DNA of 34,297 nt from Cryomorphaceae bacterium (GCA_003566715.1 PXCF01000125.1:1-34297), one strand, 5' to 3'. Numbered from the stretch's first letter, positions 13,549-31,022 are shown. Notes: generated by a model not told the origin, from the letters alone. Numbers and translations: made by a program.

Positions 13549-13941
13549 ATGAGTAATAAGAACCGCAGACATACCAAGACGCAGCAGATGGTGTTGGATT
13601 ATTTTGAAAATACGGATGGTGCTGTGTCTCATGAAATGGTAGAGAAGTCGTTGGGGGATAGCATGAATCGTGTAACCATTTATCGCATACTCAATCGGTT
13701 TGAGGAAGATGGTATTGTTCATAAGATTGTGGGTGATGACGGAGTCTCTTACTATGCACGTTGTGAAAGTGCCTGCGATCACGACCACCATCACGACAAT
13801 CATATTCACTTTCGCTGCGAAAAGTGTAACAGCATCAATTGTTTGGAGCAGTCAATTTCAATTGATCTTCCCAAAAATTATCAAATGACCAATATTAATT
13901 TTTTGATTACAGGCATTTGTGCATCATGTAACAAAGAATAA
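13549..13941 (+). CDS. Fur-family metal-responsive transcriptional regulator
   Basis: A 130-residue Fur/Zur/PerR-type repressor. The N-terminal winged helix contains the recognition helix region NRVTIYRILNRFEEDGIVHKI (40-60). The dimerisation and metal domain contains a His/Asp-rich stretch (CDHDHHHDNHIHFRC, 76-90) and two CxxC pairs, Cys90/Cys93 and Cys124/Cys127, which form the structural zinc site. It binds DNA when its regulatory metal is present. Which metal (iron, zinc or manganese) cannot be read from the sequence. It is monocistronic with its own promoter. The ten-gene operon starts 178 bases downstream, but I see no convincing Fur box there. Confidence 0.9.
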   Translation: MSNKNRRHTKTQQMVLDYFENTDGAVSHEMVEKSLGDSMNRVTIYRILNRFEEDGIVHKIVGDDGVSYYARCESACDHDHHHDNHIHFRCEKCNSINCLEQSISIDLPKNYQMTNINFLITGICASCNKE

Positions 13942-14062: not shown

Positions 14063-14092
14063 TTGTTTAGTTAAAATATTTTATTATATTTG
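14063..14092 (+). promoter_or_regulatory. Promoter of the ten-gene uncharacterised operon
   Basis: TTG (14063-14065) and TATATTTG (14085-14092) are separated by 19 bases, the same spacing as the fur promoter, in a very A/T-rich region. Transcription should start near 14098, about 20 bases before the first ATG at 14120. No other convincing promoter is seen before 22850, which supports one long transcript. The rest of the 13942-14119 gap shows no clear terminator or operator. Confidence 0.7.
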
Positions 14093-14119
14093 ACTCGAAA
14101 ACAACCTCACTCCACTCAA

Positions 14120-15259
14120 ATGTCTGATGATGACAGTTCCCCTTATGGTATCAAGATTAATTCAATAGGTAGTGCACTTCCGGCCTCATCGGCTTTACTT
14201 GCCGATGCATTGTCATGTTCACCTGAATTAATAAGTCGCGCTGTCTACACAGCGCCTTCCCAGCTATTTTCATCGCTTGACTTTAAGACAGCTGAAAAAG
14301 CGCACGATGTCTTATCTAAGTTAGGCTTCGATGTTGAAATCACCCGTGGAAAGTCTGAAAAAGAAGAGGAAAAACGCTTGTTTGACATCGCCGTTTATTT
14401 GTCTTCTCCATTAGATTTAACAAAAGTTGTAAAGGAGCTATCGGTTTTTCTAGGACTGCATGAATCGCAAGTACAAAATATGCTGATGGCCTTTCCTCCC
14501 TTGGTTTTAGGTCATGTATCTCAGAGTACCGTTGATGCTATTTCCAACAGGATTCCGCAGGCTCAGGTATTCGCCTATAACCCCAATGAAGGACATTATT
14601 ATTCACGTCTTATTAATGTCAAAAAAGAGAACGTAACCAATGACTCGTCTATACAATGTCATCAAATTGGTGATGACGTATTTATTGAAGGTTTGAGCTT
14701 TGAGCAGACAAAGCGGTTTTGGCGTCAGTTCAACAGCAAATGTCAGGTTTTACACCATTCACTTTTACGTGCTGAGTTGGTTGCTTTAAAAATTGATCGC
14801 AGTGAGTCTAAAGCGATTGATTATTTGATTAATTGCGTTGGAATGCCAGAGGCGTTTGTAAACGCGATTGATACATATTTACCACTAAAACTTTATGAGC
14901 CAAGACCGATTTCAATCTTAAAAGAAGAGATTAATCAATTAAAGGACATCGGGATATATTGTGAATTGGTTCCTTTATGGGAGGATTTTTCTAGATTACA
15001 TCTTACGTCTGTAAGTGTCAAAAATATGGAGGCCATCAACAAAATACTCCGAACTTTTTTTGCAGAAGAATACAGCTTACTAAATACAAAACATAATAAT
15101 CGCGATACCTTTCATGTGTTTTCTGAAAAACCTACACTACTAAACTACTTTGCCGAAGAGCTTCTTTCACAAAACGGTTGCGATGTTATTGTCGAACCAA
15201 GCATGAGGCTTAAAATTAATCATTTAAAACGTTTAGAATTTCATGAAAACACCGTTTAA
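14120..15259 (+). CDS. Uncharacterised protein with L7/L12 C-terminal-domain-like repeats (operon gene 1)
   Basis: A 379-residue soluble protein with no signal peptide or membrane helix. The start is the ATG at 14120 (MSDDDSSPYG); an earlier in-frame TTG lies inside the promoter. I see a repeated helix-helix-strand unit at about 22-74, 100-153 and 231-285, with partial copies near 185-212 and 335-362. Each full unit has a helix with a hydrophobic core, a proline-containing turn (TAPSQLF, AFPPLVL, YLPLKLY), a second helix and a final strand after G/I-x-x-V (LGFDVEI, IGIYCEL). This matches by eye the pattern of the ribosomal L7/L12 C-terminal (ClpS-like) fold, which mediates protein contacts. 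That assignment is inference. It is the first gene of the operon and overlaps the TPR-like gene by 17 bases. Confidence 0.7.
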   Translation: MSDDDSSPYGIKINSIGSALPASSALLADALSCSPELISRAVYTAPSQLFSSLDFKTAEKAHDVLSKLGFDVEITRGKSEKEEEKRLFDIAVYLSSPLDLTKVVKELSVFLGLHESQVQNMLMAFPPLVLGHVSQSTVDAISNRIPQAQVFAYNPNEGHYYSRLINVKKENVTNDSSIQCHQIGDDVFIEGLSFEQTKRFWRQFNSKCQVLHHSLLRAELVALKIDRSESKAIDYLINCVGMPEAFVNAIDTYLPLKLYEPRPISILKEEINQLKDIGIYCELVPLWEDFSRLHLTSVSVKNMEAINKILRTFFAEEYSLLNTKHNNRDTFHVFSEKPTLLNYFAEELLSQNGCDVIVEPSMRLKINHLKRLEFHENTV

Positions 15260-15797
15260 GAATAACACATTACACCTGGGCATTGCCGAGAAGGGGAAAA
15301 TATTAACCCTTGATGGCAATTATCCACTCGCTCTCCATTATTTTAGAGAAGCCATAAGATTGTGTTCGGAGGGCGAAGGCGCTGATGTGTTTTTCCAGCA
15401 TTACAGTCAGTGTGTTATGGAGGTATTAGAACACATGAGTGCATATGATGAAGTATTGGATTACTGCGATAAGGTTGTCCATCATCTTGACGTTAAAGTA
15501 CAATCGGATTTTTCCAATAAGTTGTTGGCGTCAACCCTAGAAAGAGCTGGTATACAGTGTCTTTATCTGGGTGATGTAGATAGTGCACGGGTATATTTTG
15601 ATTCTGCTCAAAAGAGAATCGGTAAAGGGCGGTTGCCAATTACCGATCGTTTGCTGTTTTGGTTGATAAGAGGTTATGCCATCACAAAGAAACAGATTGT
15701 TGACTTGCAGAAAAAAAATGGATATTTTGTCATTGATAAAAGTAAGTTGAGACCGGATATTGCGATTGACTTACCCTCTCATAATGCGCCATTCTAA
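15243..15797 (+). CDS. TPR-like helical repeat protein (operon gene 2)
   Basis: A 184-residue soluble protein without export signals. Helical pairs with the tetratricopeptide pattern are visible: GKILTLDGNYPLALHYFREA (about 18-37), a second pair around 58-80 (AYDEVLDYCDKVVHHL), and a third around 95-125 (LYLGDVDSARVYFDSAQKRI). TPRs are protein-binding scaffolds or chaperone platforms. The gene overlaps the previous one by 17 bases, which suggests coupled translation and a joint role, and lies 29 bases before the OmpA-containing paralog. The specific partner is unknown. Confidence 0.7.
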   Translation: MKTPFKNNTLHLGIAEKGKILTLDGNYPLALHYFREAIRLCSEGEGADVFFQHYSQCVMEVLEHMSAYDEVLDYCDKVVHHLDVKVQSDFSNKLLASTLERAGIQCLYLGDVDSARVYFDSAQKRIGKGRLPITDRLLFWLIRGYAITKKQIVDLQKKNGYFVIDKSKLRPDIAIDLPSHNAPF

Positions 15798-15826
15798 ATC
15801 AATAAACACTCCTAAATCAAATCACT

Positions 15827-17620
15827 ATGAGACAAGCTAAAATTATGCAAGAAGGTGCCAACGTTCTTCAACAGGTTGACGTTAGCGACATTTTCACGTC
15901 TTTGGCTTTGGGCATTGCAGAAGCTCAAGAACGATTAGACGATAATTCTATCAAGCAGATTTTGCGGTTGACGGACAAACAAGTTGCCGGTAAATCTTTA
16001 ATTGAGCTCGGGTTCGTGCCTGCTTTTTACCATTTTGATTACGCCGACATAAGTGCTTCCATTCAATTGAAAATGGCGGTAAAAACGTCCATGGATTTAG
16101 GAATAAAAGCGAGAGTTGAATTTGCTAGATCAAGAGGGTATGATGAATCATTTCTTGAATTACTCAACGAAAGCAGACAAGAGAAGAAGAGAACCGAATT
16201 TAAAAGCAGTCGGACGTTCCTCATCAACTCAAATTCTTCAGAACGGATAGATTACCAGAATAGAACCATACAAATGGATCAGTCGTCCGGCTCTATTGAA
16301 AAGGTGGAGATGATGAAAGATGAGATGAGAAATTCGGAAAAAATAGACCGAGTAGAAGTGGATGTGATTGATAGAGAGGAGATGCGTAGTTCATCGGAAA
16401 GTTCTGAAGTCGTTGTTACCAAAAGAGATGGCTATGGAATGATTTATATTCCCAACAGAAAAGCCAAGACCGCCTTGCTCAAGGTTCACCAGTATCCTGA
16501 TGGCGAGCAAGTACACCAAATAGGTGAACAAATTAATTATAAAATCAAGACCTCGTTCCAAGCTACACTTGAAGGTTTAAAGGCATTGGCTGCTAATGGA
16601 GGTTTAGGAACGGACGCTAAAGTAGTCGGATGCAAAAGAAGTGTAGCTAACGACACAGTAGGTGGCTTTTCGGTTTTCTTTGGACATGACAAAGACAGAG
16701 TAAATGAGAATTTTTCCGATAACGATGTCAATAATGATGGTGTTTTTGATCAAATAAATGCTTTGGCAGACATACTTTTAAAAGATTCATCTATAAATGT
16801 TGAGATTGTAGGGTATACAGATAGCACGGGAAAAGAGGCCTACAATCAAGGTTTAGGTAAGAGAAGAGCGGAACGTGTAAAAGACCATTTGGTTGCCAGG
16901 GGGGTACCCCCTGCTCGGGTAAGGACCAAAAGCATGGGGGAAATTCCCGCTAGAGAAAAAAACGGGGATGGACAACACGATGAGAACTATCGACGTGTGG
17001 ATGTGCTTTTGCCTCATACCGCCGATTTCTTTCACATTCAGGGAAGTAATGTTAATAAAGGAGGTGTGGTCGAGCCGGAGTTTTCTTCTGAAAGCAAGTA
17101 CGGTATCATATCCGTTATGTCAAAAATACCAGCCACTGATAAAAATGTTTCATTTGAATACGGAAACCGATCTTTTGAGGCAGATGCTAAAAGTGCTGAG
17201 GATTTTTTACAAAAAGAAACCAGTATTCAAGGTTTTGATGAAACCTTTTCCTCAGAAGTACATAATGAGGTAGTGTATTTGCTCAGTCACTCAGCTAAAC
17301 TGCAATTTACTTCTTACAGTAACGAGTCGGAAGACATCAGCATTCAATCTTCAAGGAGTGAGGTAGGGACTGAGTCTGGTACAGAAAACACCCTACTTGT
17401 TGACGAAACAGTAAACAGCAGGAGTCGATTGCGTAATGACGCCGGAGCTTCTGAAGAAGAGTCCACCTTTGCGGTTGGAGCATCTGTAGATTTTCGCATG
17501 TCTCGACAATTTGAAATGGAAGTGACAGGCAATTCTTCGATGTCGGCTAGATTGTCTTCTGTGCCACCGCCGGATGCCTTTACCGAACATATTCGCAAAA
17601 CACTCAATGGTGAAGCGTAG
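15827..17620 (+). CDS. Paralog-family protein with internal OmpA-like domain (operon gene 3)
   Basis: A 597-residue protein. Residues about 20-90 carry the first blocks of the family shared with the downstream genes (GIAEAQERLDDNSIK, then LGFVPAFYHF). The matching end block (GNSSMSARLSSVPPPDAF, about 565-582) is at the far C-terminus. Between them, residues about 281-394 form an OmpA C-terminal-like domain: FSVFFGHDKD, an Asn/Asp-rich turn (NDVNNDGVFD), GYTDSTG with Asp332, an NQGLGKRRAERVKDHL helix, and YRRVDV with Arg390. Asp332 and Arg390 sit where OmpA family members bind diaminopimelate of peptidoglycan. The OmpA domain therefore looks inserted within the family fold. The remaining parts are charged and Ser/Glu-rich. 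There is no signal peptide, lipobox or membrane helix, which is odd for this domain. It ends three bases before the next paralog. Confidence 0.8.
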   Translation: MRQAKIMQEGANVLQQVDVSDIFTSLALGIAEAQERLDDNSIKQILRLTDKQVAGKSLIELGFVPAFYHFDYADISASIQLKMAVKTSMDLGIKARVEFARSRGYDESFLELLNESRQEKKRTEFKSSRTFLINSNSSERIDYQNRTIQMDQSSGSIEKVEMMKDEMRNSEKIDRVEVDVIDREEMRSSSESSEVVVTKRDGYGMIYIPNRKAKTALLKVHQYPDGEQVHQIGEQINYKIKTSFQATLEGLKALAANGGLGTDAKVVGCKRSVANDTVGGFSVFFGHDKDRVNENFSDNDVNNDGVFDQINALADILLKDSSINVEIVGYTDSTGKEAYNQGLGKRRAERVKDHLVARGVPPARVRTKSMGEIPAREKNGDGQHDENYRRVDVLLPHTADFFHIQGSNVNKGGVVEPEFSSESKYGIISVMSKIPATDKNVSFEYGNRSFEADAKSAEDFLQKETSIQGFDETFSSEVHNEVVYLLSHSAKLQFTSYSNESEDISIQSSRSEVGTESGTENTLLVDETVNSRSRLRNDAGASEEESTFAVGASVDFRMSRQFEMEVTGNSSMSARLSSVPPPDAFTEHIRKTLNGEA

Positions 17621-17623
17621 ATT

Positions 17624-18076
17624 ATGAGTGCCATTAATACCATAACAGATACGCTGACCAACACACCACTGCCGTTGATGGTCGAAAAACTCGGGTTGTC
17701 AATTGCTCAGGCACAAGCTGCGCTGGATGACAACACCATTAAAATGATATCAACACTGGTGGATAAAAAGGTGGATCTTGGAGGAAAGCCATATAGTCTT
17801 TTGGCGCTTGGCTTTGTACCAACCTTCTACGCTTTTACCGAGGCGACGATTGAGGCAAGGTTGGAGTTTTCAATGACCGAGTCCGAATCTTTGTCTGTCG
17901 GAGGCGAGGTGTCTGCCGAAATTGGGGTGGTAGCCGTGTCTGTTAATGCGTCTTATGCCAGAAAATACGAGCAATCTGCCAGTGGCTCCTCAGCCATTTC
18001 GGCACGACTGATTTCTTTACCGCCTCCTGAAGCTTTTCTAGAAGTTTTACGAGCATTGGATGAAAACGACAATTGA
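17624..18076 (+). CDS. Minimal paralog-family protein (operon gene 4)
   Basis: A 150-residue protein that seems to be the shortest form of the shared family. The order of blocks is: amphipathic start (TNTPLPLMVEKLGLSIAQAQ, with AALDDN after it, about 12-37), LALGFVPTFYAF with ATIEARLEFSM (about 60-84), a Ser/Glu/Val-rich strand region (about 85-115), NASYARKYEQ, and GSSAISARLISLPPPEAF (about 121-138). No signal peptide, membrane helix or cysteine is visible. Overall layout resembles, from memory, proteins annotated DUF2589; this needs a profile search. It lies between two paralogs in the same operon. Confidence 0.75.
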   Translation: MSAINTITDTLTNTPLPLMVEKLGLSIAQAQAALDDNTIKMISTLVDKKVDLGGKPYSLLALGFVPTFYAFTEATIEARLEFSMTESESLSVGGEVSAEIGVVAVSVNASYARKYEQSASGSSAISARLISLPPPEAFLEVLRALDENDN

Positions 18077-18105
18077 TTTTTTTAACCCTGTAAACACTTA
18101 ATCAC

Positions 18106-18873
18106 ATGTTACCAAGAAGAAGAAGAACAAGCGTGGGACAAGAACTGCTCGACGTCCCCATGGGCGATATGATTCGCGATATGGCTTTTGCTATAGCAGA
18201 AGCGCAGATTAAATTAGATGAAAACTCCATCAATGTTGCCGAAATGATGGGAGGAATTAGAACGACAGTAACTGAAACCCCAGAAGGTGAAGAGCATGTT
18301 GAAGTGCACGACAGCCGGGTGTTTTTTGGAAGAGAAACGGTTACGAAAGCAGAAGCAGTGGCCATTCTTAACAGTAATGCCGATCCAAAAACCATACAAT
18401 CTGTTAAAGGTGAATTAGAGAGTAGTGATTACACCGGAGGTGGAGAAGATCCTTACGTTGTAAAAGAAGGCGTAGCCAATCAAACCATAACCATTCCACG
18501 CAGAATGTCTATGATGGAACTGGGTTTTACACCGACGTTTTATCAATTTGTAGACACCATTATTGAAGTAAAAATGAGTATTAAATTTACTCAGGAAGTC
18601 GAGCGTGGACGCACGACGTCGGATAGGAGCAGGGATTCTTCCATGGAAGGTAAAGCGTCTTTCAGTTTTCGGAGAGGTTTAAGTGCCGGAGGCTCTCGCA
18701 AAGTAAATACCTCACAAGTCAATGCATCCTACTCTCAAAAGTACAGCTATTCTGCAGAGGGTTCCAGTCTTTTGCGAACCAAATTGGTGCCCATACCACC
18801 TCCATCTGTACTTGAAGAGCGAATTCAGAGAATGATGGACAATGAGTTTTCCGATAACGAGGAAAACAACTAG
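18106..18873 (+). CDS. Paralog-family protein with long insertion (operon gene 5)
   Basis: A 255-residue member of the shared family. It has the start block (FAIAEAQIKLDENSIN, about 28-43), then an acidic insertion of about 90 residues not found in the short paralogs, then LGFTPTFYQF with DTIIEVKMS (about 139-158), an Arg/Ser-rich region (about 165-200), VNASYSQKYSYSAEGSSLLR (about 205-224) and LVPIPPPSVL. The middle block is nearly identical, also in DNA, to that of the next gene. The N-terminus begins with a basic stretch (LPRRRRTS). No export signal is visible. Confidence 0.75.
   Translation: MLPRRRRTSVGQELLDVPMGDMIRDMAFAIAEAQIKLDENSINVAEMMGGIRTTVTETPEGEEHVEVHDSRVFFGRETVTKAEAVAILNSNADPKTIQSVKGELESSDYTGGGEDPYVVKEGVANQTITIPRRMSMMELGFTPTFYQFVDTIIEVKMSIKFTQEVERGRTTSDRSRDSSMEGKASFSFRRGLSAGGSRKVNTSQVNASYSQKYSYSAEGSSLLRTKLVPIPPPSVLEERIQRMMDNEFSDNEENN
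18538..18576 (+). repeat. Direct repeat copy 1 within the paralogs (39 bases)
   Basis: The codons for FYQFVDTIIEVKM match 19133-19171 at 36 of 39 bases, with all three differences at third codon positions. This indicates a recent duplication or gene conversion between operon genes 5 and 6. Confidence 0.85.
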
Positions 18874-18895
18874 TAAGCTTTAATATCGCCATATT

Positions 18896-19390
18896 ATGAA
18901 CATTGGTAAGGAATTACTAAACGCCCCCCTGCCCGAAATGGTGCAGGGTTTAGGCGTTGGTATAGCTGAAGCTCAGTTTGCACTCGACAAAGTTTCTGTT
19001 CGTATCGCCCAGAAAATGGCGGGCATGGCAGAGGACAAAGACGGAAAAATGGTTTTTGATGAAAAATCACTGATTAAACTCAGAGAGGACCTGCCTGCGC
19101 AGAGCCTGTTGTCGCTGGGATTTGCTCCAACCTTTTACCAATTTGTAGACACCATTATAGAAGTGAAAATGGCGGTATCAATGAGCAGAGAGCGTGAAGC
19201 AAGTGCTTCTGTAAGTGCTAGTGTGTCAAAGTTTATGGTTGCTTCGGCATCGGTAAATGCCAGTTACTCTCAAAAGTATCAATATGGAGCGGAAGGCTCT
19301 AGTTTGCTGCGAACAAAATTAGTTACCGTTCCTACGCCGGCTGTTTTTGAACAGCAATTAAAGTCTATCATTGAAAACCAATCAACATAG
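18896..19390 (+). CDS. Paralog-family protein (operon gene 6)
   Basis: A 164-residue member of the shared family, closest to the preceding gene. Visible blocks are LNAPLPEMVQGLGVGIAEAQ with FALD after it (about 8-32), LLSLGFAPTFYQF with DTIIEVKMAVSM (about 71-96), an Ala/Ser/Val strand repeat (ASASVSASVSKFMVASASV, about 102-120), NASYSQKYQYGAEGSSLLR and LVTVPTPAVF. The alternating Ala/Ser/Val pattern suggests exposed beta-strands. No signal peptide or membrane helix is visible. It begins 22 bases after the previous stop and is followed after four bases by the basic protein gene. Confidence 0.75.
   Translation: MNIGKELLNAPLPEMVQGLGVGIAEAQFALDKVSVRIAQKMAGMAEDKDGKMVFDEKSLIKLREDLPAQSLLSLGFAPTFYQFVDTIIEVKMAVSMSREREASASVSASVSKFMVASASVNASYSQKYQYGAEGSSLLRTKLVTVPTPAVFEQQLKSIIENQST
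19133..19171 (+). repeat. Direct repeat copy 2 within the paralogs (39 bases)
   Basis: Matches 18538-18576 at 36 of 39 bases; all differences are synonymous. Confidence 0.85.
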
Positions 19391-19394
19391 GATA

Positions 19395-20315
19395 ATGGCC
19401 AAGCATTGGAAACATCATATTCCTAAAACGTCTGAGCCTTATTTAGACTTAGAAGATTTGACGCGACAAGTTCCCGGCTTTCAAGATTTGCTCGAAGAGC
19501 GAAAGTCTCTGGAGGAACAAATGTCTGCGATGACCAATAAAACAGAAAGCCGTCAACTTCCTTTCGAACCGGATATTCCCAGTATGTCGGAGCAAAGAAG
19601 GCGTTATCAGGCTTGGGCAAAGAAAAGAGAACAGGCTCAACAAAAACTTAAGATTAACCGCCAACCAAAAGAAAAAAACGAGGATAAAATCATCTCAAAA
19701 ATAAAACGGAGCCGTAAAAAAGCTAAAAACGTTGATCATTTTATTTCAAAGATCAATCGCCGTCGAAAAAAAATCCAGGATGGTCTGTTATTGGTACATG
19801 ACAATCGCTTTTCCGTAGGCTTTGAAGCAAAGCGCTCCAAACGAGAAGACTTGACCAGTAATGAATCAAAACCCAGAGAAGCTAAGCGGTTAGCTACTAA
19901 ACTAGATAAAGACTTTCGACAATTGTCTGTTGAGGATATTAAGACCAAAAAGCCAAAAGAAAAGATTTTAGGTTTTGTTTCTCAGGTTATATCTAAAACA
20001 AAATCAGATATATCACCTAAGAAAGCGTTGCTAAAACCCAAGGGGTTCCAAAACCTCATGGAAGATGTCAGCGATAAAAAGAAAGCAGCTAGTGAATCAC
20101 TTCGCTTTAATCGTCCTAAGCTCGTTAAGCCTCAAGTTACACGAAAGCTGATTGATCCTTTCTTTAAAGTAGAAATGGGTGATTTCAAAACGGATGATAT
20201 TGGATTACAAGACGATTTTTCTATGAATATTGACGATTTAACACGCGACATCAAGAAACGAAGTGATTCAGATACGTGGTCTTTAAACCGCGATAAAAAG
20301 AAATTTCAATTATGA
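19395..20315 (+). CDS. Strongly basic uncharacterised protein (operon gene 7)
   Basis: A 306-residue, Lys/Arg-rich hydrophilic protein starting at the ATG at 19395 (MAKHWKHHIP); an in-frame upstream TTG would overlap the preceding gene. I do not recognise a family. Two adjacent copies of a basic motif occur (IISKIKRSRKKAK at 99-111 and FISKINRRRKKIQ at 116-128). A short acidic/aliphatic motif occurs near both ends (LDLEDLTRQV at 18-27 and MNIDDLTRDI at 277-286). The composition suggests a largely disordered linker or nucleic-acid/anion-binding protein; that is inference. It overlaps the next gene by four bases (ATGA). Confidence 0.65.
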   Translation: MAKHWKHHIPKTSEPYLDLEDLTRQVPGFQDLLEERKSLEEQMSAMTNKTESRQLPFEPDIPSMSEQRRRYQAWAKKREQAQQKLKINRQPKEKNEDKIISKIKRSRKKAKNVDHFISKINRRRKKIQDGLLLVHDNRFSVGFEAKRSKREDLTSNESKPREAKRLATKLDKDFRQLSVEDIKTKKPKEKILGFVSQVISKTKSDISPKKALLKPKGFQNLMEDVSDKKKAASESLRFNRPKLVKPQVTRKLIDPFFKVEMGDFKTDDIGLQDDFSMNIDDLTRDIKKRSDSDTWSLNRDKKKFQL

Positions 20316-20995
20316 GTGATCAATCAGAAAAACACACCTTTGCTTTACAGCACATACTTTCAGGGATAGCTGAGGGACTAAATACTGCCCAGGAGAACTT
20401 ACGCGATGTGGCACCTTATGATTCATTTGGCAGACCCAACACCATGTACCAGTTGCCATATCTTGACTTTGATCTCAAGGTGACAACCTCCTCTGTAGAA
20501 ACCAACAGAAACGTGCCGTTACTTAAAATGACACGAATTCCATTACACACGTGTTTTTTTAATTTAAAACCTCAGCAAAAACAAGGTTCTACATCAAATG
20601 AGGTGAATAGTACCATCTCAGGGCGATTTGTAGCGGTTGTACCCAATGAAGGAAAGCCACAGCGCATGTTGGTTTTTTCGTCAAATGAAGTAGTTAAAAA
20701 AGGCAGTAAGTATACCATTCAACTGGAGGCGCTTTGTAAAAATGTGATGGAAGAGGTGTTTGCCAATGTATTGGTAGAGTTTAATTTTGATAAGTTGGCC
20801 AGTGAGCAACTAAATGCAACGCCCATACAAACCCTACCTGAGTTTTCCGTTTCTGAAAAGCCCACCAACAATGATGGTATTGCCTTAACTGAAGTAAGCA
20901 TCCCCGAAAAGGAATTTGAAAAGGGACTTACCTACGTCATCGTTGCCAATATTGGTAACTTATATTCATCAATTGCCATACAATACGAGCCATGA
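20312..20995 (+). CDS. Uncharacterised protein, divergent paralog-family N-terminus (operon gene 8)
   Basis: A 227-residue soluble protein. The N-terminal part (ILSGIAEGLNTAQENLRD, about 14-31, then MYQLPYLDFDLKVTTSSVET, about 45-64, and STISGRFVAVVP, about 99-110) follows, in weaker form, the block order of the other paralogs. The C-terminal half is beta-rich with no recognised domain. No signal peptide or membrane helix is visible. It is coupled to both neighbours by ATGA overlaps, with the basic protein upstream and the coiled-coil/PASTA protein downstream, so these three are probably made in fixed ratio and may act together. Confidence 0.65.
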   Translation: MSDQSEKHTFALQHILSGIAEGLNTAQENLRDVAPYDSFGRPNTMYQLPYLDFDLKVTTSSVETNRNVPLLKMTRIPLHTCFFNLKPQQKQGSTSNEVNSTISGRFVAVVPNEGKPQRMLVFSSNEVVKKGSKYTIQLEALCKNVMEEVFANVLVEFNFDKLASEQLNATPIQTLPEFSVSEKPTNNDGIALTEVSIPEKEFEKGLTYVIVANIGNLYSSIAIQYEP

Positions 20996-22245
20996 TTCAA
21001 AGAATACAATGTGTCGCAGACTTATACGACCACAACAAAAAGGCTGTTAATATTAGAGTGAGGGTACAATACTTTGATGCAACTAGAAATAGATGGATCA
21101 ATTTAACACCACTGGCAAGTTTCAAGTTATCAAGGATGCAGTATACTACATCTTCTTCTAATGTCTTGAGCCGATTGACTAACGGTAACTTAGCAGTTTT
21201 TCGTTTGGTTAATAGTCAAAATACAGCCGAGATGATATCGTGCGGGTATTCTATTCAGCGCAGAAGTATTCCCGGAACCAACAATGATGAAATATTTTTA
21301 GATTTTGGAACAATTTATTATCATTCCTCCAGTTACTTATCTGATCTGGACTTAAAACTACCTCCAAATCAACGTGGTTTTCGAACCATTTTGGTGAAAG
21401 AAAAAAATGACAAGCAAGATGCGGTTATAAAAACCCTACAAACCGAAATAAGAGGTTTAAAATCAACGAATACTGAATTGTCTAACGAGATTGAAAAACT
21501 CAATAAATTGTTGTCTGACGCAAGAGCTGAATTAAAAAAATTACAAAGCGGTTCGAACGATTCTGATAAAATACGCAAGAAGTTAGAGAAAACGATTTTA
21601 GACCTAGAGCGTGATGTCGATCATTTAAACAAGTCTAAAAAGGAGAAAGATCAGCAACTAAAACGCACTCATAATGAATTGATTAAAGCAAGTGGTGATT
21701 TAAAAAAAGAAAGTTCTCTCAGAGCTAAGGCCGAAGAGGAACGCGATATGATTAGTGGTAAACTTGAGCAACTTAAGGAGGAGGTTCGCATCAGTAAAAA
21801 GAATGGTCCGGCCAATATATCTTCCATATACCGTCACATGATAGAGGAGGTTGAAGAGTCCATACCTAAGTCAAAAAACAGTCGCTTTTCCATTGGAAAA
21901 GTTTCCATGAATTTAAAGGGATTGGTTGTTAATGACAGCGGTCGCGAACGCTTTCAGTTACTGGATCCTGAACTGGCCAAGCAAATTCGCAGTGATGTCA
22001 TCAGTAATGTGTTTATTGAAATCAACGACACAAACCCATCTGAAGATCATCGATCGTTGGTTCCCAATGTATTGGGGCAAACGGAAACAGCTGTTAGAAA
22101 TACGTTGAAGGCAAGTGATTTACACTTGAATGCAGTGTATCAATCCAGAAAGTCAGTGCCCGTTGGCCAAGCATTTAAACAAAGTCCGGAAGAAGGCGAC
22201 GCACTCCCGGCAAATTCCGTTGTTACCGTAGTTTTTTCAAAATAA
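20992..22245 (+). CDS. Beta domain, coiled coil and PASTA-like domain protein (operon gene 9)
   Basis: A 417-residue protein with four visible parts. Residues 1-135 are beta-rich (for example VRVQYFDATRNRWINLTPLA). Residues about 138-270 are a long Lys/Glu/Leu heptad coiled coil. Residues about 275-345 are a mixed domain (ISSIYRHMIEEVEESIPKSK, then FSIGKVSMNLKGLVV) that loosely resembles the trypco2 pattern. Residues about 357-417 are a PASTA-like domain (VPNVLGQTETAVRNTLKASD ... PVGQAFKQSPEEGDALPANS ... VTVVFSK). PASTA domains usually bind cell-wall fragments outside the cell, but there is no signal peptide or membrane helix. The gene starts within the preceding stop (ATGA) and ends seven bases before the next gene. 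Confidence 0.75.
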   Translation: MIQRIQCVADLYDHNKKAVNIRVRVQYFDATRNRWINLTPLASFKLSRMQYTTSSSNVLSRLTNGNLAVFRLVNSQNTAEMISCGYSIQRRSIPGTNNDEIFLDFGTIYYHSSSYLSDLDLKLPPNQRGFRTILVKEKNDKQDAVIKTLQTEIRGLKSTNTELSNEIEKLNKLLSDARAELKKLQSGSNDSDKIRKKLEKTILDLERDVDHLNKSKKEKDQQLKRTHNELIKASGDLKKESSLRAKAEEERDMISGKLEQLKEEVRISKKNGPANISSIYRHMIEEVEESIPKSKNSRFSIGKVSMNLKGLVVNDSGRERFQLLDPELAKQIRSDVISNVFIEINDTNPSEDHRSLVPNVLGQTETAVRNTLKASDLHLNAVYQSRKSVPVGQAFKQSPEEGDALPANSVVTVVFSK

Positions 22246-22252
22246 TTAAGTT

Positions 22253-22849
22253 ATGCCAAAGAAAGCGATAGATTTTTACAACAGTGCACTTTCCGGTTCA
22301 TTGGGTGATTTGATCTCAAGCATAGGAGAGGGGGTAGGAGAAGCTCAAGCAGCTTTAGATAGAGGTTCGCTGGCAAAATACCTGGAGTTATACCAGCAAA
22401 ATGATGATGAAGTACCAGATCACATACTGGAACTTTTGCGCTCAATTGGATATCAGCCAACTTTTTATACCATACCGGAAACCGAAGTTGAGGCCAAGAT
22501 TGCACTGTCTATTTCAGCAAAGACCATCAATCATCAAACCGGTGGTTCAAAAGTTAGAATGTATGGGATGCCTAGCAATCCGGGAAATGTCAATCAGTTT
22601 AATGCAGAAGTTAATTCATTCGCTACACTGAAATTTAAAATTTTACCCGTACCACCACCCGAGGGTATGGACCAAATGATTCCGGTGCCAAATTTTGAGC
22701 ACCTTACTGTTGTTAAAGCAAATGAGTTGGCAGAAAGCGAGGGTTGGAATATTATTATCAGGGGAAGCAAAAACAAGATTAAAAAACAGTATCCGGAAGA
22801 AGGTCAAATGCTGTTACCCGGTGGAACCATTGTGTTAGTAACGGCATAA
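22253..22849 (+). CDS. Paralog-family protein with C-terminal PASTA-like domain (operon gene 10)
   Basis: A 198-residue protein. Residues about 14-140 carry the family blocks (ISSIGEGVGEAQAALDRGSL at 21-40, RSIGYQPTFYTIPETEVEAK at 63-82, FATLKFKILPVPPPEG at 123-138). Residues about 144-198 form one PASTA-like domain (PVPNFEHLTVVKANELAESE, 144-163; QYPEEGQMLLPGGTIVLV, 179-196). It thus joins the two main themes of the operon in one chain and links to gene 9, which also ends in PASTA. No export signal is visible. It is the last gene; I see no convincing terminator hairpin before the guaA promoter, only a short imperfect palindrome near 22860. Confidence 0.78.
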   Translation: MPKKAIDFYNSALSGSLGDLISSIGEGVGEAQAALDRGSLAKYLELYQQNDDEVPDHILELLRSIGYQPTFYTIPETEVEAKIALSISAKTINHQTGGSKVRMYGMPSNPGNVNQFNAEVNSFATLKFKILPVPPPEGMDQMIPVPNFEHLTVVKANELAESEGWNIIIRGSKNKIKKQYPEEGQMLLPGGTIVLVTA

Positions 22850-22935: not shown

Positions 22936-24465
22936 ATGCAAGAAACCATCATTATTGTCGATTTCGGCTCGCAATACACCCAGTTGATTGCACGCCGACT
23001 GCGTGAGCTAAATGTTTACTGTGAAATCCAACCGTTTCACAATGTCAATACCGATCATGTCAATCTTAAAGGGATTGTCCTTTCCGGAAGTCCGCACTCT
23101 GTATTAGAGGACAACGCACCATTACCTCCTGAGGTGGTCTTTCAATCGGATGTACCGGTTTTAGGTGTATGCTACGGTGCACAGCACTTGGCGCATATTG
23201 GTGGTGGCTCCGTGCAAAAATCTGAAGTGCGTGAATATGGTCGCGCTAACCTAACCAGCATTGACGACAAGCATCCATTGATGAATGGGGTTCCTGTTGG
23301 TTCTCAGGTGTGGATGTCGCATGGTGATACCATCAAATCGTTACCCGAAGGCTATCAGATTATTGCCAGTACGGAAGACGTGGCGGTTGCTGCTTTTTAC
23401 ATTGAAAACAAACAGATTTTTGGTATTCAGTTCCATCCGGAGGTCTATCATTCCACCGATGGTATGCAGTTGCTCAGCAATTTCGTGCTCGATATTTGCG
23501 GGTGTGTGGCCGACTGGACGCCCGCCGCTTTTGTTGAGGAAACTGTGGAGAACCTCAAGTCCACTATTGGCGAAGGTAAAGTCGTCATGGGACTATCTGG
23601 CGGTGTTGACAGTACCGTTGCAGCCGTCTTGCTTGATAAGGCCATAGGCGATCGCCTCCACTGTATCTTCGTCAACAATGGTTTGTTGCGTAAAAATGAA
23701 TTTCAGAGTGTGCTCGAGCAGTACAAGCACATGGGGCTCAACGTTAAAGGCGTCGACGCCTCCGATCGCTTTCTGGGGCAGCTCGAAGGGGTGTCTGAAC
23801 CCGAAGCCAAGAGAAAAATCATTGGTCGCGTATTTATTGAGGTGTTTGACGATGAAGCCAATCGCATTGAAGGCGTTGACTTTTTAGGTCAAGGCACCAT
23901 TTATCCCGACGTAATTGAATCGGTATCTTCCGGTGGCCCGTCGGTAACCATTAAATCACACCACAACGTAGGTGGATTGCCCGATTTTATGAAATTGAGT
24001 GTTGTAGAGCCCCTGCGTTTGTTGTTTAAAGATGAGGTTAGACGCGTGGGCGCATCACTGGGTATTGCCCCACAATTGCTTGGACGCCATCCTTTCCCCG
24101 GCCCCGGATTGGCCATTCGTGTGTTGGGCGATATTACCAAAGAAAAAGTACGCATCCTCCAAGAGGTAGATGACATATTTATTCAAGGACTTCGCGAAGA
24201 AAATCTATACGACAAAGTATGGCAAGCCGGAGCAATTCTTTTACCGGTTCAGTCGGTAGGAGTGATGGGAGATGAACGTACGTACGAGCAAGTGGTTGCC
24301 CTGCGTGCCGTAGAGTCTACCGATGGTATGACCGCCGACTGGGTGCATTTGCCTTACGAATTTTTGGCACGGGTTTCGAACCGCATCATTAATCGTGTAA
24401 AAGGCGTTAATCGCGTCGTATACGACATTAGTAGCAAACCTCCCGCCACCATTGAGTGGGAATAG
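22936..24465 (+). CDS. guaA: GMP synthase (glutamine-hydrolysing)
   Basis: A 509-residue two-domain enzyme that converts XMP to GMP with glutamine and ATP. The N-terminal class I glutamine amidotransferase has nucleophile Cys79 (GVCYGAQ) and His167/Glu169 (FHPEVYHS). The ATP-pyrophosphatase domain has the loop GLSGGVDST (219-227). The C-terminal dimerisation part ends in the family signature IEWE, with [11 protein letters not shown] also present. Length and all motifs are normal. It has its own promoter, and the LysM gene follows after 17 bases. Confidence 0.97.
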
Positions 24466-29448: not shown

Positions 29449-30108
29449 TCAGGTTTTTCTTAATTCCATCAACGCTTTTCCCACATCTTTTTTACAAAAT
29501 GCATTAAGCTTGTGGTGGGTTTCGGCAAGGAGCAGCGATTCGTAGTTGATTTCCAAATAACGGTCTTTCAGTTTCGGTTGATAGGACCTCGCTTGTTCCA
29601 CGTATTTTTTCCACAATGCATGGGCTTTATCACGATCTTCTTGTACTTGGGAGCGCACTTCACCGGGGGTGTTTTGTCGGTTGATTAAACTCTTTACCAC
29701 ATCGTCGGCGTTGCGTACCAGGTGTATTATTTTCGCCTCGGGGTAAAGTGTCAACCAGTGTGGAAGGGTAAAGGTGTTGCGAGGGTCTTTCCATCCCCAA
29801 GCGGTTTTCCCCAAAATTATTTGCCACACAAAATCCCGACGTCGATGTAAATCAAAGTGGATTTTTAATAATGCGTAGGGCTGGTGATTCGGCCAATGAT
29901 TTTCTTGGGGAAGAATGGGGTTGTCCCAATGACCACCGGCCATTTGTATGGCTTGTTGGTTCAAACTCAAAAAGTGAATGGCCTCTTCATTGTGGTCGCG
30001 ATTCACGCCCATGTGAATCCCTGATCGATGCATGGCAGCTGCCAACCACGATGTACCGCTGCGATGACAACCTATAACGATGAAAGGACGAGCAAACGCA
30101 GGTATCAT
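29449..30108 (-). CDS. Sulfotransferase family protein (small)
   Basis: A 219-residue putative PAPS-dependent sulfotransferase. The 5'-phosphosulfate loop is visible at the N-terminus (FIVIGCHRSGTSWLAAAMHR, 9-28), and the 3'-phosphate region around IIHLVRNADDVVKSLINR follows the usual R-x-x-x-x-x-x-x-S pattern. There is no signal peptide, so it acts in the cytoplasm, probably on a glycan or lipid precursor. It is the second gene of a two-gene minus-strand unit, eight bases after its larger neighbour, and converges on bshC. The substrate is unknown. Confidence 0.82.
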   Translation of the reverse strand: MIPAFARPFIVIGCHRSGTSWLAAAMHRSGIHMGVNRDHNEEAIHFLSLNQQAIQMAGGHWDNPILPQENHWPNHQPYALLKIHFDLHRRRDFVWQIILGKTAWGWKDPRNTFTLPHWLTLYPEAKIIHLVRNADDVVKSLINRQNTPGEVRSQVQEDRDKAHALWKKYVEQARSYQPKLKDRYLEINYESLLLAETHHKLNAFCKKDVGKALMELRKT

Positions 30109-30116
30109 GATGCTTG

Positions 30117-31022
30117 TTAAGACTCTTTTTCTGTGTCGTTATCGTCTACGGAATCTATGGGGTCTTCCAGAGCTGCATCTTGCTCGTCACTATTTGCTTG
30201 ACTTGGAGGAAGTGCCGTGTCGTCCCAACTTCCAATGGACAAAGGAACCCAAGCTTTTAATTTTTCGTGGTGTGGCGTGAAGTAATGATGAAGATACTCT
30301 TTAGCGAAAGATTCATCGGCCTGAATACCTTGAGACGCATTTTCGTGTGGTAAAGTTTCACTTTTCCAATTGTGGGCGGGTAGCTTTAAAAAAGCTGTTA
30401 GTGCTTTCATACACTCAGCCGGTTGAGCCAAAAGCGTTTCCATACGCAGCACAAACATTTGTTGACGCTTAAAGTGTTTGGTGAAATTTATCCACTGTGC
30501 TTCATAGTGTCCGCGAGACTTATACGTAAAGTTTTGAAACGTTGAATCGGGTGTGTCCCAACTTTCACCGGCCTGCATAGCCTTCAATAAACGATCTTCT
30601 TCGGTGACCAATGCCATGAGCGGACTCAATGGTTCAATGCCCCGCTCAGCGTTCATGCGGTAATGCGACAGCGCTCTTTCTGCCGGGTCGCGTAAGATGA
30701 AAATCAATTTCACATTGGGATACATCTTCGCTATTCTTGCTGCTACGGCAGGGTGGTACATATAGAACGGAGATGCTTCACCGGTAATCATACCTTCCGG
30801 ACAACTCAATTGCTCGCGGTAAGTATCTTTTCCTGCATTGTAATTGAAGTCAAAAAAGTGAAGTTCCTTTTTTTCGTTGCGGTATACCTTGGGATGCTTT
30901 GCGAGCATGTCGTAAAGCGTACTGGTGCCTGATTTTTGCGCACCCACGATGATGAATGAAGGAGAAGCCGGGGAAGTGGACGATTTGGCGCCCTTATTTT
31001 TCTTTCTAAAGAGTCCGAACAT
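30117..31022 (-). CDS. Sulfotransferase domain protein
   Basis: A 301-residue sulfotransferase. A basic N-terminus is followed by the PAPS 5'-loop FIIVGAQKSGTSTLYDML (23-40), a HFFD segment, EASPFYMYHP, and the 3'-phosphate motif LIFILRDPAERALSHYRM, which matches the heparan/glycan sulfotransferase type. The last 30 residues are acidic and low-complexity. No signal peptide is seen, so sulfation probably occurs in the cytoplasm. It is the first gene of the two-gene unit. The 198-base gap to the divergent DUF2911 gene has only a one-mismatch -7 element for this strand (31089-31096). Confidence 0.85.
   Translation of the reverse strand: MFGLFRKKNKGAKSSTSPASPSFIIVGAQKSGTSTLYDMLAKHPKVYRNEKKELHFFDFNYNAGKDTYREQLSCPEGMITGEASPFYMYHPAVAARIAKMYPNVKLIFILRDPAERALSHYRMNAERGIEPLSPLMALVTEEDRLLKAMQAGESWDTPDSTFQNFTYKSRGHYEAQWINFTKHFKRQQMFVLRMETLLAQPAECMKALTAFLKLPAHNWKSETLPHENASQGIQADESFAKEYLHHYFTPHHEKLKAWVPLSIGSWDDTALPPSQANSDEQDAALEDPIDSVDDNDTEKES

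Follow-up and report, generated by a model that had tools for sequence, protein, structure and literature searches.

A ten-gene operon with six paralogs from a Cryomorphaceae genome, kept in order across phyla and very probably encoding one multi-part structure

Ten-gene operons whose order is kept across phyla are usually well known, for example those of secretion, motility, gas vesicles or defence. The 34,297-nucleotide stretch of DNA analysed here (the window; Cryomorphaceae bacterium, GCA_003566715.1, PXCF01000125.1:1-34297) comes from a 2.46-Mb draft Bacteroidota genome (G000) and raises the question of what a block of ten plus-strand open reading frames (ORFs), P1–P10 at 14120-22849, encodes, and whether its members belong together. 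An initial annotation, made from the sequence alone, had described an operon of mostly unknown proteins and suggested a built structure or a receptor-type complex. The present analysis upheld one unit containing several copies of one fold; an assembly is the best inference, while the "receptor-type complex" is without direct evidence. No description of the ten-gene system was found in the open-access literature, an absence that is not proof that none exists.

Conservation of the ten-gene block and its compact form

A scan of 84,980 species genomes returned 128 relatives; because the scan worked from short conserved peptides, there are at least as many relatives as counted here. The best 80 of the 128 were read and mapped with iterated hidden Markov models (HMMs), one for each of the ten families. 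P1 or P2 was present in 46 loci, 40 of them untruncated, and all ten families occurred in the same order and on the same strand in 32/40 of the untruncated long-form loci. The long form with kept order spans Pseudomonadota and Bacteroidota, including marine Bacteroidota and Caulobacter. The initial annotation had staked its proposal on conserved gene order, and the order was found to be kept. The remaining 8/40 comprise six Amphritea variants, one Archangium and one Roseomonas. The Archangium (Myxococcota) locus keeps the order but P7 was undetected, and the Roseomonas locus fails solely through a mis-called ORF start, an artefact. In the ten-slot Amphritea loci (L085, L088, L089, L105, L106 and L111), the OmpA insert is missing from the P3 slot and different paralogs fill other slots; these loci also carry two extra downstream genes (∼117 and 715 amino acids) of no known family.

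The distance matrices of the ten families correlate (r 0.75–0.96), and no further gene cluster or neighbour family recurs across the set of loci; hence, the ten families are inherited as one unit. Order, co-inheritance and paralogy show that the ten genes act as one functional unit. The ratio of nonsynonymous to synonymous substitution (dN/dS) between the window and a sister genome (G030) was 0.04–0.20 for P3–P10, denoting purifying selection, which argues that P1–P10 are not chance ORFs. Because the order is kept in marine Bacteroidota, Caulobacter and a myxobacterium, the product of the block is very probably a single multi-part structure or machine. That ten unrelated housekeeping genes became adjacent by chance is scarcely credible: beyond the lack of known function nothing speaks for it, and it is opposed by an order shared by Pseudomonadota, Bacteroidota and, bar the undetected P7, Myxococcota, by the six paralogs and by the correlated family distances.

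The occurrence of the block is patchy (2/60 family genomes, 5/395 phylum genomes). In the concatenated tree, the Paracoccaceae operons are nested, with full support, among those of a gammaproteobacterial group, a placement suggestive of transfer. No long form was found on plasmids, the only plasmid copy found being a compact one in Sphaerotilus. In one record (L076, CP034120, "Glaciecola amylolytica"), the operon and its flanks (clusters c17-c21, c30 and c47) match Fluviicola loci and the sequences nest near Fluviicola; the name of this record may be wrong, or it may contain transferred DNA.

A second clade, separated by a full-support split in the P6 tree, has a compact form consisting of a small protein (usually one), P6-like, P4-like and P8/P10-like paralogs, and a coiled-coil protein that bears the P9 domain. 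This form was encountered in eleven phylum-level groups; Chlorobiota, Cyanobacteriota, Chloroflexota and Bacillota are examples, as are archaea (Natronomonas and Methanohalarchaeum). Its lead paralog shows 76% identity between Chlorobium and Sphaerotilus, and its core genes are without the OmpA domain. The small upstream protein, A8 (∼100–130 amino acids; e.g., L041 9541-9936), carries the motif FGAxV...GLFLV...GGxVV...GPVxxDxxRF, has no Pfam match and looks like a small α/β domain; its relation to P1 was considered and rejected (hhalign 0.8%). The P9 relative of Natronomonas (L061 11502-12479) ends in PASTA plus a helix-hairpin-helix domain.

Six paralogs, their predicted fold and their companions

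Direct alignment showed that P3, P4, P5, P6 and P10 share one domain, and profile comparison added P8 (hhalign 95% vs. P10 and 80% vs. P4). The initial count of "five or six" paralogs thus settles at six, and by these alignments P3, P4, P5, P6, P8 and P10 are identified as distant copies of one small protein. The combined P4 and P6 profile aligned collinearly with DUF2589 (PF11655) over 140 columns (hhalign 92%, E 5.7e-7, score 46.9), with control scores of at most 18.6 in 20 column shuffles and 23.4 for the reversed profile. Direct DUF2589 matches were obtained for 3/96 core members (best E 2.7e-4); the individual profiles of P5, P8 and P10 gave no match to it. Membership of DUF2589 proper was rejected, as no protein of the window reaches the Pfam cut-off. 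From the profile comparison, we conclude that the core, via P4 and P6, is a distant superfamily relative of DUF2589.

Like the paralogs, the DUF2589 genes also occur as adjacent copies in several genomes examined, but their clusters show none of the ten-gene layout. In six loci (L169-L174), DUF2589 genes lie in small clusters of their own, often as two or three side-by-side copies, with a companion whose start resembles a divergent paralog (e.g., L173 4107-4790 and L174 4114-4791); these clusters are a separate undescribed multi-paralog system. In the open-access literature, PF11655 was not mentioned, and DUF2589 appeared in one paper, as up-regulated on lactate in Archaeoglobus (PMC3949148).

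The AlphaFold2 model of P4, with a mean predicted local distance difference test (pLDDT) score of 71 and ∼88 in the core, contains a helix (16-47), two strands (68-89 and 112-132) joined by a loop (90-111), and a second helix (136-149). The beta moment of the hairpin (first strand plus loop region) exceeded that of shuffles at p < 0.05 in 73% of P4 and 65% of P6 sequences, and did so in 8/8 P3 segments tested. No PDB relatives of the paralog core were found by sequence. A relation to Cas7/Csd2 was also considered; the matches were weak (10/96, best E 9.5e-4) and were judged to be chance, with the long hairpin as their probable cause. By structure, P4 weakly resembles ring- and pore-forming hairpin proteins, pore stems and the ring-building motif RBM3 of FliF. 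Amphipathic hairpins and this weak Foldseek resemblance to pore stems are what a β-barrel pore or membrane channel formed from the paralog hairpins would have in its favour. Such a pore is nevertheless a poor prospect, since the P4 hairpin matched pore stems below significance (best Foldseek E 0.24), amphipathic strands also arise where one face packs on a helix, and membrane localisation is without evidence.

Profile searches with Pfam, NCBIfam and PADLOC were run on all ten proteins, and signal peptides and transmembrane (TM) segments were sought by hydropathy. Pfam families were assigned only to P2 (TPR), P3 (OmpA), P9 (PASTA and coiled coil) and P10 (PASTA), and NCBIfam added only OmpA-, PASTA- and coiled-coil-type matches. 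PADLOC gave mostly coiled-coil/PASTA-type matches and one partial match to P7 (E 0.0014); for the paralog core its matches were weak and scattered, with no known anti-phage defence family matching across the protein. These three collections detected neither an enzyme or ATPase domain nor any effector, protease, nuclease or NTPase in the operon, and hydropathy revealed no signal peptide or TM segment in any of the ten families, bar isolated sequences. The contents listed by the initial annotation (L7/L12-like, TPR-like, basic and coiled-coil/PASTA proteins besides the paralogs, and no enzyme or ATPase) were all recovered; the list had missed the OmpA domain in P3 and the PASTA at the end of P10.

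The L7/L12 C-terminal domain (PF00542) was matched by 7/15 P1 orthologs (best E 4e-4), and the P1 profile matched that of E. coli L7/L12 (1ctf) with E 1.3e-4. The likeness concerns the first repeat of P1, which, unlike L7/L12, is not a ribosomal protein gene, is longer and lies inside a ten-gene operon. The AlphaFold2 model of P9 (mean pLDDT 86) shows an N-terminal β-sandwich, an antiparallel coiled coil, a helix-hairpin domain and PASTA, which superposes on the PASTA of PknB with a root-mean-square deviation of 1.1 (Foldseek/VIA); PASTA was found in 47/48 P9 relatives. PASTA (PF03793) is thus shared by the C-termini of P9 and P10, but the operon has no kinase or penicillin-binding protein, and an archaeal P9 relative has PASTA too.

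The OmpA domain of P3 and the proposed assembly

In OmpA/Pal peptidoglycan-binding proteins, an Asp and an Arg hold diaminopimelate. Both ligand residues are invariant in 41/41 P3 orthologs, which implies that the site is under selection. The domain (PF00691) lies at residues 311-385 of P3 (E 1.2e-13) and differs from other OmpA-like domains in being embedded within another domain and in lacking a detected signal peptide or TM segment, hydropathy showing no such stretch in almost every sequence of the P3 set. Either an unrecognised route leads the domain to the wall, or it meets a soluble wall-derived ligand in the cytosol, or it binds another ligand. Downstream of the compact operon of Pseudanabaena (L044 3831-7129), two vWA-like proteins are encoded, of which the second combines a TM segment with a C-terminal OmpA domain, possibly an independent pairing with OmpA.

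We infer one physical assembly of the ten proteins, and a cellular role for it, along the following lines. Each core subunit would consist of a helix, a long amphipathic β-hairpin and, in the minimal form, a C-terminal helix, and the hairpins of six subunits may line up side by side to give a ring or tube. P9, with its coiled coil, β-sandwich and PASTA, and P8, with its Ig-like tail, would serve as structural adaptors; the L7/L12-like P1 and the TPR protein P2 would help the parts to assemble or dock, and the basic P7 would act as a linker. P3 carries the long OmpA-bearing insert in place of the loop that joins the hairpin strands; with intact ligand residues at this position, the tip of the assembly would be expected to meet the cell wall or a diaminopimelate-type ligand. 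Taken together, a unit that has spread horizontally and in which six DUF2589-like subunits form a hetero-oligomeric core, with hairpins in a ring or tube and a P3 tip meeting such a ligand, is proposed tentatively, as plausible rather than probable.

Several observations weigh against this proposal. The P4 hairpin loop is of low confidence (pLDDT < 50 at residues 90-113), and P5 shows a weak beta moment (19% at p < 0.05). The P4 model gave no significant fold match in the PDB (best Foldseek E 0.24, best Z 3.6), which in itself does not establish a new fold. Archaea, which are without bacterial peptidoglycan, keep PASTA in P9, so that PASTA need not mean wall binding, and no route was seen that would take a signal-less OmpA domain to peptidoglycan.

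The intact peptidoglycan-ligand residues of P3, together with the unseen export signal, would also suit a cytosolic complex that detects wall fragments or envelope damage through OmpA and PASTA and signals through P1 and P2, as a conflict or stress sensor akin to the Trypco conflict systems. Trypco2 (PF19631) is the trypsin-co-occurring domain of vWA-MoxR conflict systems (PMC7159879). It was matched weakly by 5/96 core proteins (best E 0.012, below significance and the Pfam cut-off) and is absent from 14 genomes carrying relatives; on these matches, its link to the core may serve as a lead only. Unlike Trypco2 systems, the operon has no trypsin, vWA or MoxR gene, and trypsin and vWA-MoxR genes are not recurrent neighbours across the loci, the two vWA-like genes of the cyanobacterial locus standing alone. 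The patchy distribution also agrees with a sensor. It is held to be unlikely, however, as the operon has no effector, protease, nuclease or NTPase and no conserved neighbour, the core matches in PADLOC are weak and scattered, the operon of the window sits among housekeeping genes (fur-like and guaA), and the compact-form core genes lack the OmpA domain.

Peptidoglycan-binding modules without export signals, and several non-identical copies of one structural domain, could equally belong to a particle made in the cytoplasm, released by lysis or bound to the surface, with P3 and the PASTA domains as its anchors to peptidoglycan. We regard such a particle as more unlikely still, because no sheath, tube, baseplate or lysis gene and no phage homology was detected. 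A contractile injection system or tailocin likewise finds no sheath, tube, baseplate or AAA+ gene in the operon. Phage origin was rejected: no phage record matched, no relative was confirmed in viral contigs, and PHROG matches were weak and scattered. In BFVD, a single predicted viral protein, itself unnamed, is similar to P4 (E 7e-6).

Genetic setting and wider meaning

The proposed ring or tube is encoded by closely packed genes (Table 1). The spacings given by the initial annotation were reproduced, with a 17-base overlap of P1 and P2 (15243-15259), a 29-base gap between P2 and P3, and ATGA overlaps joining P7 to P8 (20312) and P8 to P9 (20992). The promoter it had placed before P1 is a good match; its statement that none is evident inside is not strictly so, since one of three further matches to the pattern falls within P8 (20760-20789). 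The window holds four matches against 0.86 expected, and no shuffle reached four. The promoter position makes ATG 14120 the probable start of P1, rather than TTG 14090, as the latter sits in the promoter -7 box and the ortholog of the sister genome (L145) begins at the matching ATG.

Table 1. Features of the ten-gene operon (positions in the window).
Feature	Position	Strand	Basis
Promoter TTG-N19-TATATTTG, Bacteroidota-type	14063..14092	+	Sequence; window match count vs. expectation
P1: L7/L12 C-terminal-like domain at N-terminus, probable further repeats, 379 amino acids	14120..15259	+	PF00542; 1ctf profile; ortholog start
P2: TPR-like protein	15243..15797	+	PF00515 E 1.1e-6
P3: paralog core split by ∼440-residue insert with OmpA-like domain (residues 311-385)	15827..17620	+	PF00691 E 1.2e-13; alignment
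P4: minimal paralog	17624..18076	+	Alignment; AlphaFold2 model; profile comparison
P5: paralog, insert after first helix	18106..18873	+	Alignment; family HMM maps
P6: paralog	18896..19390	+	Alignment; family HMM maps; profile comparison
P7: basic, fast-evolving, net charge +29, dN/dS 0.20	19395..20315	+	Family HMM maps; charge; dN/dS
P8: divergent paralog domain and probable Ig-like C-terminal domain	20312..20995	+	hhalign; alignment; Ig-like by eye
P9: β-sandwich, antiparallel coiled coil 140-270, helix-plus-hairpin 276-345, PASTA 354-417	20992..22245	+	AlphaFold2; Foldseek
P10: paralog core and C-terminal PASTA	22253..22849	+	PF03793 E 1.6e-7; hhalign 99.8% vs. P4

The operon (G+C 40.5% vs. 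∼45% in the flanks) lies between a fur-like gene (13549-13941) upstream and guaA (22936-24465) downstream. In the sister genome, this operon occupies the equivalent position and is divided between two contigs, of which C13 holds fur-P1-P2 and C99 holds P2-P10-guaA. The closest named relative of the operon is that of a Cryomorphaceae metagenome-assembled genome (L108). No clean empty site was found, the fur-like gene and guaA being non-adjacent in congeners without the operon. Elsewhere in the window (29449-31022), two side-by-side minus-strand genes are sulfotransferase-like by eye.

A broader reading, somewhat unlikely in our estimation, would make the locus a new prokaryotic nanostructure of bacteria and archaea, namely, a hetero-oligomeric ring or tube that paralogous subunits of the DUF2589 superfamily build with their amphipathic hairpins and in which one hairpin tip, in the ten-gene form, carries a peptidoglycan-binding module by which a structure made in the cytoplasm engages the wall. 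The ten-gene block and the compact archaeal and bacterial form match no described system that was found, and neither Pfam, NCBIfam nor PADLOC has a family dedicated to the core subunits. The orphan family DUF2589 is now tied to a larger superfamily, and P3 poses the puzzle of an intact peptidoglycan-binding site kept in a protein whose export signal is undetected.

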